Positions 8,880 to 44,489 of a DNA stretch of 64,000 nt are shown here, piece by piece. The stretch's first letter is position 1. Each line of letters opens with the position of its first letter. The DNA comes from Thuidium tamariscinum (Eukaryota; Streptophyta; Bryopsida; Hypnales; Thuidiaceae), in the NCBI GenBank assembly GCA_947034885.2, contig OX344754.2, positions 18,866,501-18,930,500 of the forward strand. The letters are read 5' to 3'. The notes beneath the pieces were generated by a model that did not search any database, had not been told where the DNA came from, and saw only the letters and a program-made list of their open reading frames with translations. Both the position numbers and the translations under genes were made by a program.

Positions 8880-9610
8880 TTCGCAATGAGAATTTTTTTA
8901 GTATTGACAACTTTGAAAGCCTCCCGAGAGCTCAAAAATTGGTATTCTACCACGAAATTTTTTTCATAGCATCATCTTTAAGTTAATTATATGCATGACA
9001 AATTTCAAGGCCAAAAAATTCATCGAAAAAAAGTTATTCAAAATCTACCAACATGGGTAGTGGTGAGAAACATTTCACTACTTTCAACTTTGACACCTTC
9101 CTAAGGATTGAGTTTTTTTCTTTTGCTATGAAATTTTTTTTATAAAACAATCTCTATGTTTTTAACATGTATAAAAAATTTCAAAGTTTCAAAATATTTT
9201 TTGAAGAAGATATTTGAAATCTCCCAATGGGTGTAGTTTTGAGAAAATTTTCACAATTGCCAACTTTGACACCCTCCCAAGGGCTGAAAAATTGGTTTCT
9301 TAACATGAATTTTTTTTTGTACAGTCATCTCTATGTTGATAATATGTTCTCCAAATTTCAAGTTCAAATGAATTACCAAGAAAAAGATATTTGAAATCTC
9401 CCTGCAAGTGTAGTTGTGAGAAAATTTTCACTCCTACTAATTTTGACACCCTCCCAAGGGCTGAAAATTTGAATATTTAACATGAAATTTTCTGAATAAG
9501 ATCAAATTCATGTTGATAATATATGTTCCAAATTTCAAGTTCAAATGAATTACCCAAAAAAAGATATTCAAAATCTCTCAACATGTGTAGTTGTGAGGTT
9601 GAGTTTTTAC
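8880..9610 (+). repeat. Tandem array E1, ~175-bp unit, about four copies
   Basis: The marker CAACTTTGACACC-CTCC-AAGGGCTGAA recurs at about 8906, 9094, 9261 and 9440, a spacing of 167-188 bp. Each unit carries the same order of blocks: the marker, a CATGAAATTTTTTT stretch, ATCTCTATGTTGATAAT, CAAATTTCAAGTTCAAATG, AAAGATATTTGAAATCTC and GTGTAGTTGTGAGAAA. Copies are diverged. The same unit occurs inverted at 20770-21400. Confidence 0.75.
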
Positions 9611-20769: not shown

Positions 20770-21400
20770 CAACCTTTCATGGTAAATAGACAAATTTTCA
20801 ACCCTTAGGAGGGTGTCAAAGTTGGCAATAGTGAAAATTTTCTCACAATTACACATGTTGAGAGATTTCATATATCTTTTTTGGGTAAGTCTTTTGAACT
20901 TGAAATTTGGAACATATGTTATCAACATAGAGATGACTTCACAAAAAAAATTCATGGTAAGAAACCAAATTTTCAGCTCTTGGGAAGGTGTCAAAGTTGG
21001 CAATTGTGAAAATTTTCTCAAAACTACACATGTTGGGAGATTTCAGATATCTTTTTTTAAATTAATCTTTTGACCTTGAAATTTTTCACACATTTTAAGA
21101 ATATAGAGTTTATTCCATGCCAAAAATTTTATGGCAAAAAAAAGAAAAATTCAATCCTTGGGAGGGTGTCAAAGTTGAAAGTAATGAAATGTTTTTCACC
21201 ACTACACATGTTGGTAGATTTTGAATTTCTTTTTGTATACATCTTTTGGCATTGAAACTTGGTATACATGTTATTAACTTATAAATGATGTTGTAAAAAA
21301 GTTTCATAGTAAAATATCAATTTTTGAGGTCTCGGGAGGCTATCAAAGTTGACAAAGTTGAAATTGTTTTCACTCCAAATTGCAAAACGCCATTTTGATT
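20770..21400 (-). repeat. Tandem array E2, inverted relative to E1
   Basis: The complement of the E1 marker, GGAGGGTGTCAAAGTTGGCAA, recurs at about 20812, 20988, 21162 and 21337 (spacing near 175 bp). All blocks of the E1 unit are present in reverse order. The outer flank (CCATTTTGATTGAGACCCCA, then TTGTACAAT) matches the complement of the E1 outer flank near 8845-8870, so both arrays end at the same sequence. Confidence 0.75.
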
Positions 21401-25605: not shown

Positions 25606-27179
25606 ATGTGTAGCCCCAATTCTGGATCCGAATCGGTACGTGCAGCAACCCCCCAGGCTTACTTTTTGAAGTGGCCGATCAAAATACATTCTATACGAGT
25701 TCACTCCACTTCATTGTGCTAGTGCACACAAAATGAAATGGCTATGAGTTCGACATTCGGTTTAAAGTTTACGTTTGGAGAGTTTCGAGGCAACTGTTGA
25801 TGTTGGTCAGATATCTCAATCTAGATAGATTTAGCTCGAGACACGTCGTGAAACTTGCTCATTTATGTTGGTAGTTTTGAGTAGGTCATATGTGGGATTT
25901 CTTGCATCCAATTCTATATACTTATTATCAGCACATGCAGTGTTCTTTTTTGAGTCTGGTGATATAAATTTGGTCCCTTCCGAATTCTATTATATTCACA
26001 ATATGATGAACCAAATCTTTTCATTTTAAACCATGAATCCTTGGTTCTCGATCCTTCAGGAGTTAAGCTTCTGAGACACATCGATTACCGCTACTAATGG
26101 CTCGTATTGGCCAGATGGTTTTGACGTTGTTGCATCTCTATTTCTCTATTTTATTGCGTTTGCTGTTTAAAGCATAAGCAACTGACTTTAACTGACATTC
26201 CTACACGCTTTGGCTTCAGGCAGGGGAGGAAGAAGAGAAAGGGAAATATAGCAGCCAGAGCAGTACAACGAAAGAGACAATGCCAGCAGAGGAGGATAAA
26301 GGCAGGATGGACATTTGGGTGACCCATTTAACCCATTCCGAGATGGACGGCCAGAAGGACGCCATCCAGGGCTTGCGTACCCTCACAAAGAAAAGCTCCA
26401 TCAACCGTGACTACATCGCTCAACAAGGTGTCATTCCAGTCGTAGTGGAAATTTTGAGCCACTCCGAGGACACAGAACTGAAGAAGCACGCCGTCACGCT
26501 CCTCTTCAACCTCTCCATCACCGCTGCTCTCAAAAGCAGCATCATTTCCGCCGGTGGCGTGGAGCCCATAGTGGAGGTTCTCAAAACTGGAGACGACGAA
26601 GCCAGAGCGAATGCAGCTGCAGCTCTGTTCAACCTTTCAGCAAAAGGCTCCAATGCTGATCTCATAGGATCCACAGATGCCATCCCAGCACTTGTGGAGC
26701 TCCTCGCCGACGGCACCCGGAATGGGAAGCTGGACGCCATGAACGCAATCTTCGACCTTTGCATTTGCAAGGAGAATAAGGCCAAGGCAGTGGAAGCTGG
26801 AGTGGTGCCAAATCTAATGCGTCTTTTGACAGACAAGAGCCTTGGCTTGATTGATCATGCGCTCTCAACGCTTGCGTTGTTGGCTTTGCATTACCAAGGC
26901 CAGGCTGAGATCAGTAGGGTGAACGCCTTGCCCATTCTTGTCGATCTTGTTGCAGAAAGTAACCCTCAGAATAGGGAAAACGCGGCCTGTATCCTGCTGG
27001 AGTTGTGCTCGAATGATCCCAACAATGTGTACAACGCTACGAAGCTGGGGTTGTGTGGAGCCTTGGGGGAGCTGGCTAGTACTGGAACTGCAAAAGCACG
27101 GCGAAAGGCGAAGAAGTTGCTGGAAATTCTCAGACATGCGCAGCACAGGACTGGACCCCCTGGAGCCAGGTCCATTTGA
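25606..27179 (+). CDS. ARM-repeat protein, U-box-less PUB-like
   Basis: Two coding exons: 25606-25635 (ten codons, MCSPNSGSES, donor GTACGT) and 26220-27179 (acceptor CTTCAG), both phase 0, giving 329 residues. The second exon opens with an acidic, Ser/Thr-rich stretch, so the ATG at 26280 is probably internal. From about residue 45 to the end there are six to seven armadillo repeats, seen as recurring VIPVVVEIL, AVTLLFNLS, GGVEPIVEVL, NAAAALFNLS and AIPALVELL. No U-box precedes them. The C-terminus is basic (KARRKAKKLLEIL). The repeats most resemble the ARM domain of plant PUB-ARM E3 ligases and the short ARM-only relatives in Arabidopsis of about 350 residues, which act by binding other proteins. 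Partner and pathway are unknown. It sits alone, with BLOS1 converging from downstream. Confidence 0.88.
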
Positions 27180-39694: not shown

Positions 39695-42600
39695 ATGGAG
39701 CGAATTACCTGGAAGAAAACTCGGTCGAGGTCAAGGTCTTCCAAGACAGTAGGCCCTGACGCTGGTAATCTTCTGACCACCTGAAAGCTGTCCAACGTTT
39801 CAATTTTATTTTATTGCTTGTGACATCTCTTTGCTTTCTGACCAAGTTCATGTTTTGCTTGGTTAGTTTTGTCTTTGCAATTATCTCTTGCTCGATGTTG
39901 GTTCATTGAACAAAAATGCTTTTTTCAATTGTGCAGATGTTGCTTTTGGGACGCCGGATTATTACTTGATGCATGCAACAAAATGTATGGAACGAATTTC
40001 ATTGCTTTATTTAACTGCAGAAAGATTCAATGAAGAACAGTGCAAATATCTAGCCGGCAAGTTAGATATTGCTTTGCAAAGCGCACGTTCAAGCATAGAA
40101 CAAATCAATGCGTGGTACTCCTCGTCAGCTTCACCTGAAGATATAATAGGGTGTCTTGAGATTTTCAAGTTGCTCCTTTTGATGGGATTGGAAGCAGAGG
40201 GTTACATCCAGGACTGTTGCAAATATGAATGGATTCAAAACGCCATCATTTTGACAAATTTGTCGGAGCATGTTGCAACAATGGGTTTCAATTTGGAGTT
40301 ATGCACAATTATCTTTTCTAACAGGAGGTTAGGGATACCAACAAGCTTGACACCATCTGAAGCTACAAATCTACGCCAAGCTGAAGCAGAAATTGTTAAA
40401 GAGAAGACTAACCTAGATGAGATGAAGCTATGTGTGACTTTGAGTAATGTGACCGGGTTGGGCATTTCAAGTAGTACAGAATGGCAGTTGGCGACTTTTC
40501 TACTTGAAAGACTAAAAAGTACAAGGCTGCAACTTGGTGTTGGTTTGCGAGAAGCGTATGAATGTAAGCATTCTAAATTGAGCTTGAAGAGCTTAAAACA
40601 AAAGGAGAGCTTGGGCAAAGGTGCGTCAGGTGTTGTGCATAGAGCAATTTGGCTAGGAATTGAAGTAGCCAAGAAGACCTTCCACGGACCGAGTAATTCA
40701 AATTTCTTGCGGGAGGTGTCAATCTTGGCAGGGCTGAGGCATCCAAATATTGTATCGTCACTCTGGTCCACAACAGATCATCGCAAAAGTCACATGATCA
40801 TGGAGTTGATGGATGGAGATTTGTACACTTTGATGCAAGCAAGGTTGGAGAAGTATGAAAAGCATTGCTCTCCTTTTAGCATTTTGGAGACTTTTGACCT
40901 CCTGTTACAAATAGCAGAAGGCATGCTTTACTTGCATGAGAAGAGAATAGTGCACAGGGATTTGAAGTCGCATAACATTTTGGTGAAATCTAGGAAGGCA
41001 AGAGAATTAGACTTCAAGCATGTGCAAGTGAAGGTGGCAGACTTCGGATTGTCAAGAACAAAGGAAAAGAGCATGACGCATTCCCCGCAAACTCAAAACG
41101 TGGGCACTACCAGATGGATGGCACCCGAAGTGATGGCACTGAGAAATGATGATGGTCAAGTTGGAGAGGCAGAACCAAAGTATCCATTCAAAACCGATGT
41201 CTATAGTTTTGGAATGGTGTGTGTTGAAATTTTGACTGGAGATGAGCCTTTCCCAGCCTTGAGCCCTAGTGAAGTAAGGAATGTGGTATTAGGTGGTGGA
41301 CGTCCACAGTTACCAGCTCTATGCCCTTACAGATTGAGGACTTTGATCGAGGCATGCTGGAGCGCAGAGGCGAGCACACGACCACATTTCGGTGACATTT
41401 GTGCAGAATTGAGGCACTTGAAGTGTGGACTTTTAACGACAAGTAAGTTTGGGCCTATTGTCATCTGGAATCTAATTGCATAAACTTCACTTCATATTTC
41501 AAGTTGAGCTTGTATCTAGTGTTTTGAATCTCTTGTGTATTAGTCAACAAATTTATTGCTCTGGCAGTGTAGTGAATGTTCAGAGCTAGACTCATTATTG
41601 ATGCTTAAAACGTGTAGAATTATAAATTGATGGCCACTCTATGCTACGGTGGTATGCAGCTGTGTGGGCCAAAGTTCCTCGTTCATTCAGTTTGAACGAG
41701 ATCAGGAAGATGACAAATGAATTTAATGAAGGCAACAGGTTTGGATTGGATAAGGTGTGTCCCATTTCTTTCTGGAGGATTTTCTTTTCACATGGAAGTT
41801 CGTATGTGGCCCTTGTCGGTGATTCAAACTGTTAACGAATGATATGTTTAATGTTTGGGCACTTTGATCATGACTGGTAATGTGTGGCTTCAGCAGGTAT
41901 ATAAGGGTGTAATGGTTGACACGGGGAAACTGGTTTTAGTGGAGAGGGTACAGTATAATTGTGATTTATTGTCACCCGGCATATGGTTGAAGGTCTTGCC
42001 AGGACTTCACCACAAGAATTTGATGGGGTATGTTGGATATTGCTACGAGAATGGCGAGCGGATCCTTGTGTTTGAGTACATGCCAAATTATACTTTGGCA
42101 GGATGGCTTTTGGGTGAGCATGAGACCTCAGCTGGAACTTTTGTAAACTGGCATTCTGATCTTCTAACTTAATGCTCAATAACTTTTTTTCGTAAATTAG
42201 TGTATGTCTGCATTTTTTATGGTGGGATGCAATGATTTGATTTTAATTTTAGCTTTTCCAAAATCTTTGAACTAGGTAACGGAGGGGCGTTCCATCAGTG
42301 GGCAGTTCGGAGAAATATTTGCCTGGGAGTAGCCAATGGAATTCATTACTTGCATACTGAAACCCTAGCAAAGATTATTCGTCGTTCTATCAACCTGCGT
42401 ACCATCTTTTTGGACGCCAACTTGACGCCGAAGATTGGAGGGTTTTGGAGGGAATGTTCACTGCCCGAACTTGATAGTGAGAAAGAGGATGTCTACAACT
42501 ATGGCGTTGTGCTTCTTGAGATTGTGAGCAGAAGAATTGTAAGGGAATTGGACCAGCTACAAGAGTGGGTAAGTTTGTTCGCATCAGCAAGCGCGTGCTT

Positions 42601-42966
42601 CGCAATGTCAATGATAGCTTCTATGAAATTCACTCATGTATTTAACCAGGGAGAGCCGCCGTCCTATTCCAGGCACAGGAATTATACTGCTGGGGAAACG
42701 AAGAAAAGATCATCGACCCGGATTTGTATCTCCAACCAACCGAAAAGATGGAGGCAATCAGGATCATCAGGGTTGCGTTTCTGTGCATCCACAGCGTCGC
42801 AGCGACACGACCTGACATGGCCCGTGTGGTTGCCATGCTCCAAGGAAACCTGGATGAAGAGATTCAAAGCTTGGGCCTCGAGCATGAGCGGGAAATCTCA
42901 GAGTTACAACGGAGATTTGCTTCACAAGCAGCTGTACTAGCGCAAGAATCTGTGCCTTCACGTTGA
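39695..42966 (+). CDS. Tandem kinase-pseudokinase protein, 824 residues
   Basis: Six exons join in phase: 39695-39764, 39937-41442, 41660-41754, 41897-42113, 42276-42568 and 42673-42966. The ATG has an in-frame TAA directly upstream. Residues 1-24 are Arg/Ser-rich. Residues 30-160 form an alpha-helical region resembling the DUF1221 part of some plant kinases. Kinase 1 (about 245-515) is TKL-like and intact: GKGASG (250-255), Lys 270, HRD 363-365, DFG 392-394, APE 419-421. Kinase 2 (about 534-790) is RLK-like, starting FSLNEIRKMTNEFN, but is degenerate: Glu 573 replaces the beta-3 lysine, HRD reads RRS (665-667), DFG reads GFW (685-687), and the activation segment is largely missing. A short coiled-coil-like tail (LEHEREISELQRRF) ends it. 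It is probably a signalling kinase regulated by its pseudokinase, cytosolic since no signal peptide or membrane segment is seen. Retention of intron 2 would end translation at 41483, giving a single-kinase form. Confidence 0.85.
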
Positions 42967-44489
42967 AGCAGCTGGTTGTGGTGGTTCATAGCGGTTCTTT
43001 CTGGAGTGACATTCTTGAGTAGTAGCGGCTTGGCATTGTTTGGGACAGTTGCCTAACAAGGTATGCAATTCGGCACCCAGAATCGCCACTAATCGCAATT
43101 CAGCAGAACTTGTTTGAATTAGGTTGAAGGGATCATTTGTGTTCTTTAGCAATTACAAGTGTGTGCTGAAGTGGAAGTAGAGAATTTTGACCCAAAATTT
43201 GAGAGATATTGACTTCCAAAGTCCACTTTGTAGAGCACCACTGATTGGTAGAAAGTCACTTGTAAATCAAGCACATATACATGCTAACGTGAAGATAAGG
43301 AGCACCCCATTGGTGGATTCATGTAATGACCAATGTTCAGTGACTTCTCTAAATGGCTTCCTTTCCCAACGATGTACTAAGCCTTCTTTCCCCAGTCGTG
43401 CTCATTGTTTAGGTGTTATATTTAGGTTGGGTTCATAATGTGTGCTCATATCATAAGAGTTATTTTTTGCAATGTCATGTCAAATCAAAGTAAATCAAGC
43501 AAATTAAAGCTCTATTACACTCATGTGAAGACAATGAACATGATTGACTTTGAAGAGCTAACTTGTTCTATGGAACTCAACTTTGTTAAACCAAGGTTTC
43601 AAGGATTATTTTTAATGTGTAATGTATTTCTTTTCCATGTTAGTGGAGAGGTTCCTAAACAAGGGTTCTCCATAATGTTGTGATTGGTGAGCCTTGTCAT
43701 TCCATTTACAAGAGACCTTGGGTGTTATTTACAACATAATAAAAGAGTCAATATCATTTGTAAGGCAGACACTTGTTGGTCATCCTCCTTGTTTGATAGA
43801 AAATTGCATAGATTTAAAGGTTGGTTAGGAATAGGGTTATTGTAATAAATATTAGAGGGGTTACATTAATTGAAAGGTATGTTTTGTTGTGAAAATGGAT
43901 TTGGTCCATCATATGGAGTTTGGAGGGCACAAGATTGTATAGACATGACCCATGTGGTTGCCATGCTTGAAAGAACCCAAACAAAAGTTTCTAAATTGAA
44001 GTTGAATGGCAACATCACTAACTCAATATAATGAAACTCATTTCTTTTTTAAGTGGAAACTAAACATTTGATATGAAGATTATGGTTGTTTGTCATAATG
44101 TTGGTTCACTTTTAACATTACAAAGTTTTGAATTTGAATTTTTATGTGCCTTTGGGAAAAAGGTAACATCTCTTGTGACTCTTGTAACTTTACATGATAG
44201 TTCTTAGAATGAGGCTCACCTTCTTATCACTTAATCCATAATTCCAATAGCTCTTTGTTTATCCTGAGTTCATTCTATGCAACCAACAATTAGTCATGCC
44301 CACATGCATATTGTTCACTCTTGCAATAGATCCAAACCAACTATTAATGTTTTGTTAACAATTGAAAGGTGATTCCCACTTTTGTATCATTCAGAATTTT
44401 GTTTGCAAAAGTTAAAAAAAAGTTGAATTTCCTCTAAGATGACCTAGTAATACCAACACAAGCTTCAATGATGTAGATTTTCATAATTA
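42967..44489. other. 3' flank of the tandem kinase gene and intergenic DNA
   Basis: The first 200-300 bp are the likely 3' untranslated region. Nothing further is recognised before the family J element. Confidence 0.4.

Follow-up and report, generated by a model that had tools for sequence, protein, structure and literature searches.

A predicted moss kinase-fusion protein joining an MLKL-like active-kinase module to a degraded receptor-like pseudokinase

A gene of the moss Thuidium tamariscinum is predicted to encode, in a single spliced protein of 824 amino acids, two kinase-type domains, the first with its key catalytic residues and the second without them. It lies at 39695-42966 on the forward strand of a 64,000-nucleotide stretch of DNA (contig OX344754.2 of assembly GCA_947034885.2, positions 18,866,501 to 18,930,500, here called the window, to which coordinates refer unless a contig is named), comprises six exons and has a frame that is open throughout. 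The first kinase stands behind a helical bundle that is predicted to resemble that of the MLKL proteins, and the second domain is of receptor-like kinase (RLK) origin; the interpretation first given to this combination is partly supported and is extended here. We give a probability of about one half to the reading that the protein acts in immunity, with the MLKL-like half as the output and the RLK-mimicking pseudokinase as a sensor or regulator, a function proposed by analogy.

The exons join in phase without a stop codon, and all five introns are bordered by GT-AG. The exons and the predicted domains, the first kinase being of the tyrosine kinase-like (TKL) type, are these:

39695-39764, forward strand: exon 1, 70 nt, ending in phase 1; start codon and short basic N-terminus; from the sequence only
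39937-41442, forward strand: exon 2, 1506 nt; helical domain, brace and kinase 1; 3' end also from spliced alignment
41660-41754, forward strand: exon 3; RLK-like domain begins; from sequence and spliced alignment
41897-42113, forward strand: exon 4; N-lobe and degraded Gly-rich loop; two possible acceptors 3 nt apart
42276-42568, forward strand: exon 5; RRS, GFW and the activation-segment deletion; equals two exons in L039, a co-linear paralogue
42673-42966, forward strand: exon 6; C-lobe end of the pseudokinase, short charged tail and stop
39954-40331, forward strand: predicted four-helix bundle of the MLKL/HeLo type, residues 30-155
40353-40529, forward strand: brace-like helices linking bundle and kinase, residues 163-221; from structure prediction and a second, weak collinear profile match to AtMLKL3
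40596-41438, forward strand: kinase 1, TKL type; K270, HRD 363-365, DFG 392-394 and APE all intact
41668-42897, forward strand: RLK-like pseudokinase, residues 529-802, exons 3-6; one of ten moss RLK-like domains that form a clade (support 100/99)

The first-pass annotation of this DNA had proposed a phase-consistent gene of six exons, and protein-to-genome spliced alignments, built independently of that exon model with the Ceratodon proteins P0145 and P0002 as guides, agree with it. With P0145 the four junctions of exons 2 to 6 were found at 41442/41660, 41754/41894, 42113/42276 and 42568/42673, and with P0002 the sole difference was the exon 4/5 junction (42142/42299). The acceptor of exon 4 is doubled (CAGCAG; 41894 or 41897), the P0145-guided alignment having taken the other CAG, and a protein of 825 amino acids is equally possible. 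Both alignments begin inside or just before exon 2, so that the exon 1/2 junction was read directly from the letters. The residue numbers given earlier (K270, D365, E573, RRS 665-667 and GFW 685-687) were reproduced.

From this predicted spliced model we infer a single mRNA. The locus could instead give two products, one a protein with the first kinase alone that terminates in intron 2, the other from a separate pseudokinase gene starting in or before exon 3. Read-through of the donor at 41442 meets a stop within 15 codons, an in-frame ATG occurs at 41641, ahead of exon 3, and the database entry of a close relative, P0003 (71%), is a frame resembling exon 2 whose end looks like a read-through too, as an intron-blind gene caller would produce. 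However, five Ceratodon proteins (P0002, P0005-P0008) are annotated as fused and co-linear, the phase-1 junction after kinase 1 is common to L039 and, by eye, to two further loci of the same genome (L051 and L052), and the gap between the halves is merely 217 nt. We thus regard two separate products as quite unlikely.

Kinase 1 matched the Pfam family PF07714 at residues 243-515 (whole-protein E 1.1e-67), and the second half, searched alone, matched it at 8.6e-13, the best stretch being mid-domain. In an alignment of 58 sequences picked from the matches (A3), kinase 1 has the beta-3 Lys in 58/58, the HRD Asp in 57/58 (one gap) and the DFG Asp in 56/58. The description of an active-type TKL kinase behind a helical N-terminus therefore stands, the helical region being predicted to be a four-helix HeLo bundle of the MLKL type with a brace. 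The predicted fold of bundle, brace and kinase 1 aligns with AtMLKL3 over 426 residues. When the helical-domain profile was searched against the PDB with E up to 10, one distinct sequence was matched, again AtMLKL3 (E 0.034; two pieces, each weak alone), and the top single-kinase PDB matches of the module were AtMLKL2 (128 bits) and AtMLKL3 (127 bits), with CTR1 just below at 122. The resemblance to MLKL was seen with VIA-align, profile search and the whole-module model, and a Foldseek search with the helical domain gave no match below E 0.001. No Pfam family was found in the N-terminus of the window protein. Its helical domain matched no family and did not reach the cut-off of DUF1221 (PF06760), and of 12 members of the moss family one matched DUF1221, at E 0.041. 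The earlier label 'DUF1221-like' thus holds for the predicted fold, since the HeLo bundle of AtMLKL goes by that name (PMC10951266), and fails as a Pfam assignment.

The known Arabidopsis structures (6lba, 6ka4) have a bundle-brace-kinase fold like the one predicted here, and their bundle is able to elicit cell death (PMC10951266); conservation of the MLKLs throughout seed plants is reported (PMC9950082). In AtMLKL2 and AtMLKL3, as aligned with the module, however, the beta-3 Lys and the DFG Asp are replaced and HRD is changed to HGD or HGE, whereas kinase 1 of the window protein keeps all three, and because of these retained motifs we call the module MLKL-like rather than MLKL. Moreover, the pseudokinase of the Arabidopsis proteins directly follows the brace; in the window protein an intact kinase stands there, and a second, dead kinase is added.

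The second domain is reached from kinase 1 through a short linker, and no ectodomain was found by Pfam. As had been noted before, it has lost the beta-3 Lys (Glu 573, 41942-41944), the HRD Asp (RRS 665-667, 42380-42388) and the DFG Asp (GFW 685-687, 42440-42448); the losses are wider still, for in comparison with related RLK domains it also lacks the Gly-rich loop and a stretch of some 25 activation-segment residues that includes APE. The DVYxxG and RPxM landmarks are retained. In a tree of 39 RLK domains (L042 and L049 were dropped by the filter and L040 was left out), ten moss kinase-fusion domains, among them those of the window, L039 and Ceratodon proteins, form one clade with support of 100/99. 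The two halves, as proposed at the outset, belong to unrelated kinase types. Placement of the clade among RLK groups, which concerns DLSV and LRR-VIII, is weakly supported (72/95).

Within the clade, wherever a member still has the Gly-rich loop or DFG, that part is altered, and DVYxxG and RPxM are mostly kept. Five Ceratodon members (M758_12G027100, which is P0002, M758_12G027000, KC19_12G027000, M758_2G182500 and M758_2G183000) are co-linear with the window protein, having the helical domain, an intact TKL kinase and the RLK-like domain in this order. Their second domain is less degraded, with merely DFS for DFG, APE kept, and both Lys and HRD present in three of the five, whereas the window copy has lost all of these and is the most degraded of the full-length members. 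Its end branch is also the longest of the clade (0.74), followed by that of Ceratodon P0009 (0.66), in which an N-lobe fragment is all that remains of the second domain; the others range from 0.07 to 0.36. Full catalytic loss is accordingly not the rule in the clade, although part of the loss seems old. The region of exon 5 corresponds to two exons in L039, and therefore the activation-segment deletion in the window gene probably removed an intron as well.

Could the second half be a decaying remnant without function? The loss of the main catalytic motifs and of the activation segment would fit this, as would the reduction of P0009. On the other hand, all frames and splice sites are open. Ratios of nonsynonymous to synonymous substitution (dN/dS) against L039, obtained by the Nei-Gojobori method (NG86), were about 0.43 for the helical domain, 0.18 for kinase 1 and 0.32 for the pseudokinase, and are rough, as dS of 0.9-1.9 across regions (1.2 in the C-terminal half) is near saturation. 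When the C-terminal half of L039 was mutated neutrally, with all divergence loaded on one branch, stop-free copies numbered 1 of 1000 where the protein identity had fallen to 47% and 14 of 1000 where it was 62%; the window protein and L039 are 50% identical in this half, over two branches. These comparisons indicate that the pseudokinase half is under constraint. A pseudogene is accordingly disfavoured, the ratios being rough, and we consider a functionless remnant very unlikely.

The combination of kinases, described at first as unusual, is real as a TKL/RLK-pseudokinase tandem, yet it is not a one-off. The idea of a single-gene oddity was rejected on account of the co-linear relatives in Ceratodon and of L039 in the same genome, and by sequence the kinase plus RLK-like fusion is a family of which the window gene is one member. 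In the first protein search the best 120 of 1636 matches were listed, and the named relatives among them are from the mosses Ceratodon, Physcomitrium and Sphagnum; P0002 is 51% identical to the window protein over 94% of the query. A profile made from family members found the helical domain in all 120 listed matches and in 129 of 243 fetched proteins, 56 of the 129 being longer than 640 amino acids. A Phragmites australis protein, P0198, was listed with PF22215, presumably MLKL_NTD, and has by eye two kinase-like stretches; an MLKL-type bundle with tandem kinases may thus have arisen in grasses too.

The same module also occurs with partners other than kinases. Pfam scans of 29 fetched proteins (9 + 10 + 10) placed beside the kinase NB-ARC, phytochrome, Hsp70, WRKY, TIR, MBOAT, legume-lectin RLK and DUF7792, and further F-box, EF-hand kinase, LRR, DUF7025 and the GIL1/IRKI C-terminal domain. 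In P0040 the module is fused to a full phytochrome, and in P0243 it is followed by an IRG-type GTPase and HMA, a domain known to serve as bait in immune receptors of plants (PMC12835825). The joining to NB-ARC is seen most clearly in the annotated Ceratodon protein P0066, where NB-ARC stands third, after the helical domain (31-229) and the kinase; a helical-domain search centred on P0066 gave 27 proteins, of which the named ones are all from Ceratodon, and did not show the family outside mosses. The remaining scanned proteins had kinase domains alone, the alpha/beta-hydrolase match of Sphagnum P0107 being below the cut-off.

In a quick module tree of 39 rows, which comprise four modules from the Thuidium genome and 35 of the 129 proteins with the helical domain (proteins lacking a recognised partner were omitted), the 20 partner labels need 19 changes, the minimum possible, which is consistent with each partner having been joined once. 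P0030 and P0039 have near-identical kinases and different partners, and are annotated in two strains at different places; the Ceratodon fusions are annotated models, and some may be false. Exon 2 of the window gene is symmetric, in phase 1 at both ends, and so is that of L039 (1521 nt, after an exon 1 of 55 nt that ends in phase 1). An exon of this kind keeps the frame when it passes from one gene to another, and exon 2 would thus offer a plausible route to many partner domains.

In the Thuidium assembly (363 Mb, 19 contigs) the helical domain gave 59 matches, one of them to exon 1 of the window gene, which leaves 58 places. By our own count, 46 of these fall into six groups of at least four, on contigs C4, C5, C3, C1, C10 and C6, the last group holding the window gene among four places at 18.71-18.91 Mb. 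The RLK-like domain of the window gene was seen within 5 kb of a helical domain, by eye and in lists that are lower bounds, only in the window and at L039 (C7:1.75 Mb), the second pseudokinase version in this genome. In the module tree the kinase module of the window gene is nearest to those of its C6 neighbours L051 (C6:18.846 Mb) and L052 (C6:18.703 Mb) (Shimodaira-Hasegawa-like approximate likelihood ratio test, SH-aLRT, 97). Behind these two modules lie U-box/ARM or ARM-only exons, and a phase-1 junction was seen, by eye, at the matching place; since U-box copies on C6 recur at a spacing of about 8 kb, these may be fusions or mere neighbours. Three loci on C8 (L042, L049 and L050, 15.69-15.76 Mb) combine, with modest scores, a divergent helical domain, a TKL kinase and kinase exons of the moss LRR-RLK type, L042 and L050 having lost some of the RLK catalytic motifs, and are perhaps a separate joining of kinase and RLK, or again neighbours. 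At L054 (C8:18114401-18118400) a kinase frame lies 0.9 kb before an NB-ARC frame and has a modest helical-profile match (21.9 bits, small unfiltered search); three further kinase/NB-ARC neighbour pairs were seen by eye.

Several other observations concern the surroundings. At C3:28.41-28.51 Mb, four open frames of 632-665 amino acids each have two kinase matches in a row; that at C3:28467048 has stops inside the second match, and the set of tandem kinases is distinct from that of the window gene. Within the window, a 327-amino-acid open frame at 26196-27176 on the forward strand, which precedes the tandem kinase gene by some 12.5 kb and lies apart from it, encodes ARM repeats of the plant U-box type (PF25598, E 1.8e-27), with no kinase detected. 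An ARM tail such as that of P0145 was sought behind the gene by low-stringency tblastn with ARM parts, and no convincing match was obtained. About 1 kb downstream, 37 nt at 43942-43978 (forward strand) match a stretch of exon 6 at 84% identity and may be left over from a duplication of the last exon. Two arrays of tandem units of about 175 nt (9000-9597 and 20776-21273) have consensus units that appear by eye to be reverse complements of one another. A tRNA scan found none, a sigma-70 promoter and terminator scan is uninformative for a plant, the window protein has no Pfam match to NB-ARC or LRR, and no NB-ARC lies inside the window among the matches listed.

Among known systems, WTK1/Yr15 and barley RPG1 are likewise kinase-pseudokinase tandems, partly built from different kinase families, and LRR_8B-type domains are among the commonest in tandem kinase-pseudokinases (TKPs), with 49 of 184 (PMC6170490). 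The same paper lists 92 TKPs without other conserved domain, one of them from Physcomitrella; the window protein differs in adding a predicted MLKL-like N-terminal module, and has moss relatives. A later review describes non-kinase domains as common in TKPs (PMC12835825). The wheat resistance protein Pm13, a kinase-fusion protein with an MLKL-type N-terminal bundle and an intact kinase, resembles the window module; its kinase, however, belongs to the DLSV group, and the description of the protein includes no second one (PMC10951266), whereas here a TKL kinase precedes a dead RLK-like domain. Kinase-NBS-LRR (PNL) receptors are known in mosses (PMC3352924, PMC3991678). P0066, and L054 in a divergent version, show a likeness to them in having the helical-kinase module before NB-ARC, and the window gene differs in having a pseudokinase in place of NB-ARC-LRR. 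In N. benthamiana, the response to the kinase of a P. patens kinase-type nucleotide-binding leucine-rich repeat receptor (NLR) was modest and varied (PMC11218826). Our literature search, judged by titles and abstracts, found no description of a moss MLKL-like kinase fusion.

How such a protein might work can be proposed by analogy with the Arabidopsis MLKLs, Pm13 and other kinase-fusion proteins, in which integrated domains are thought to perceive effectors and the kinase to signal (PMC10951266); on this analogy the pseudokinase would do the sensing and the MLKL-like half would deliver the output. The pseudokinase could be a stand-in for a receptor kinase that is touched by pathogen effectors, or a docking site for a receptor kinase. 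Its disturbance would release kinase 1, which might then phosphorylate itself and partners, and the helical bundle, once freed, could oligomerise and cause cell death or an immune response. The phase 1-1 exon would let one such module join many sensor domains.

A different role for the second half, in which it regulates or scaffolds kinase 1 within the molecule or docks transmembrane RLKs, in an ordinary signalling kinase with no decoy function, we hold to be possible though doubtful. Alteration of the Gly-rich loop and DFG across a clade that mostly keeps DVYxxG and RPxM is what a retained binding surface would give, and both the purifying selection on the C-terminal half and the intact kinase 1 agree with it. 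Nevertheless, the diversity of the partners joined to this one module is better explained by exchange of an input domain than by a fixed regulator, and the long end branch of the window copy speaks in the same direction. One could also suppose that the family serves light, drought or developmental signalling and not immunity, given the phytochrome of P0040, the MBOAT and GIL1/IRKI partners, and the published recruitment of a kinase domain into a Ceratodon phytochrome (PMC4525182). This we find unlikely: the NB-ARC, TIR, LRR, WRKY and HMA partners and the clustered loci resemble immune repertoires, and the predicted likeness of the helical domain to MLKL points the same way. WRKY partners and clustering of loci are typical of immune repertoires.

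If the immune reading is correct, the moss helical-kinase unit with its many partners looks like a separate way to build kinase immune sensors. The cloned kinase-fusion immune proteins compared here are from cereals, and mosses would have made theirs independently. More tentatively, and with somewhat less confidence than we place in the function of the window protein itself, mosses may have built an intracellular sensor repertoire on one portable MLKL-like phase 1-1 exon cassette that serves as a common executor for receptor-kinase mimics, ARM repeats, phytochrome, Hsp70, WRKY, HMA and NB-ARC, the sensor of the window protein being a dead receptor kinase. The kinase that precedes moss NLRs would then be an MLKL-like module and not a bare kinase, making these receptors in effect MLKL-NLRs. 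With such a family it would also be possible to ask whether the bundle kills cells and, as a question of its own, whether the bundle needs its kinase, two matters that are hard to tell apart in Pm13 and the Arabidopsis MLKLs.

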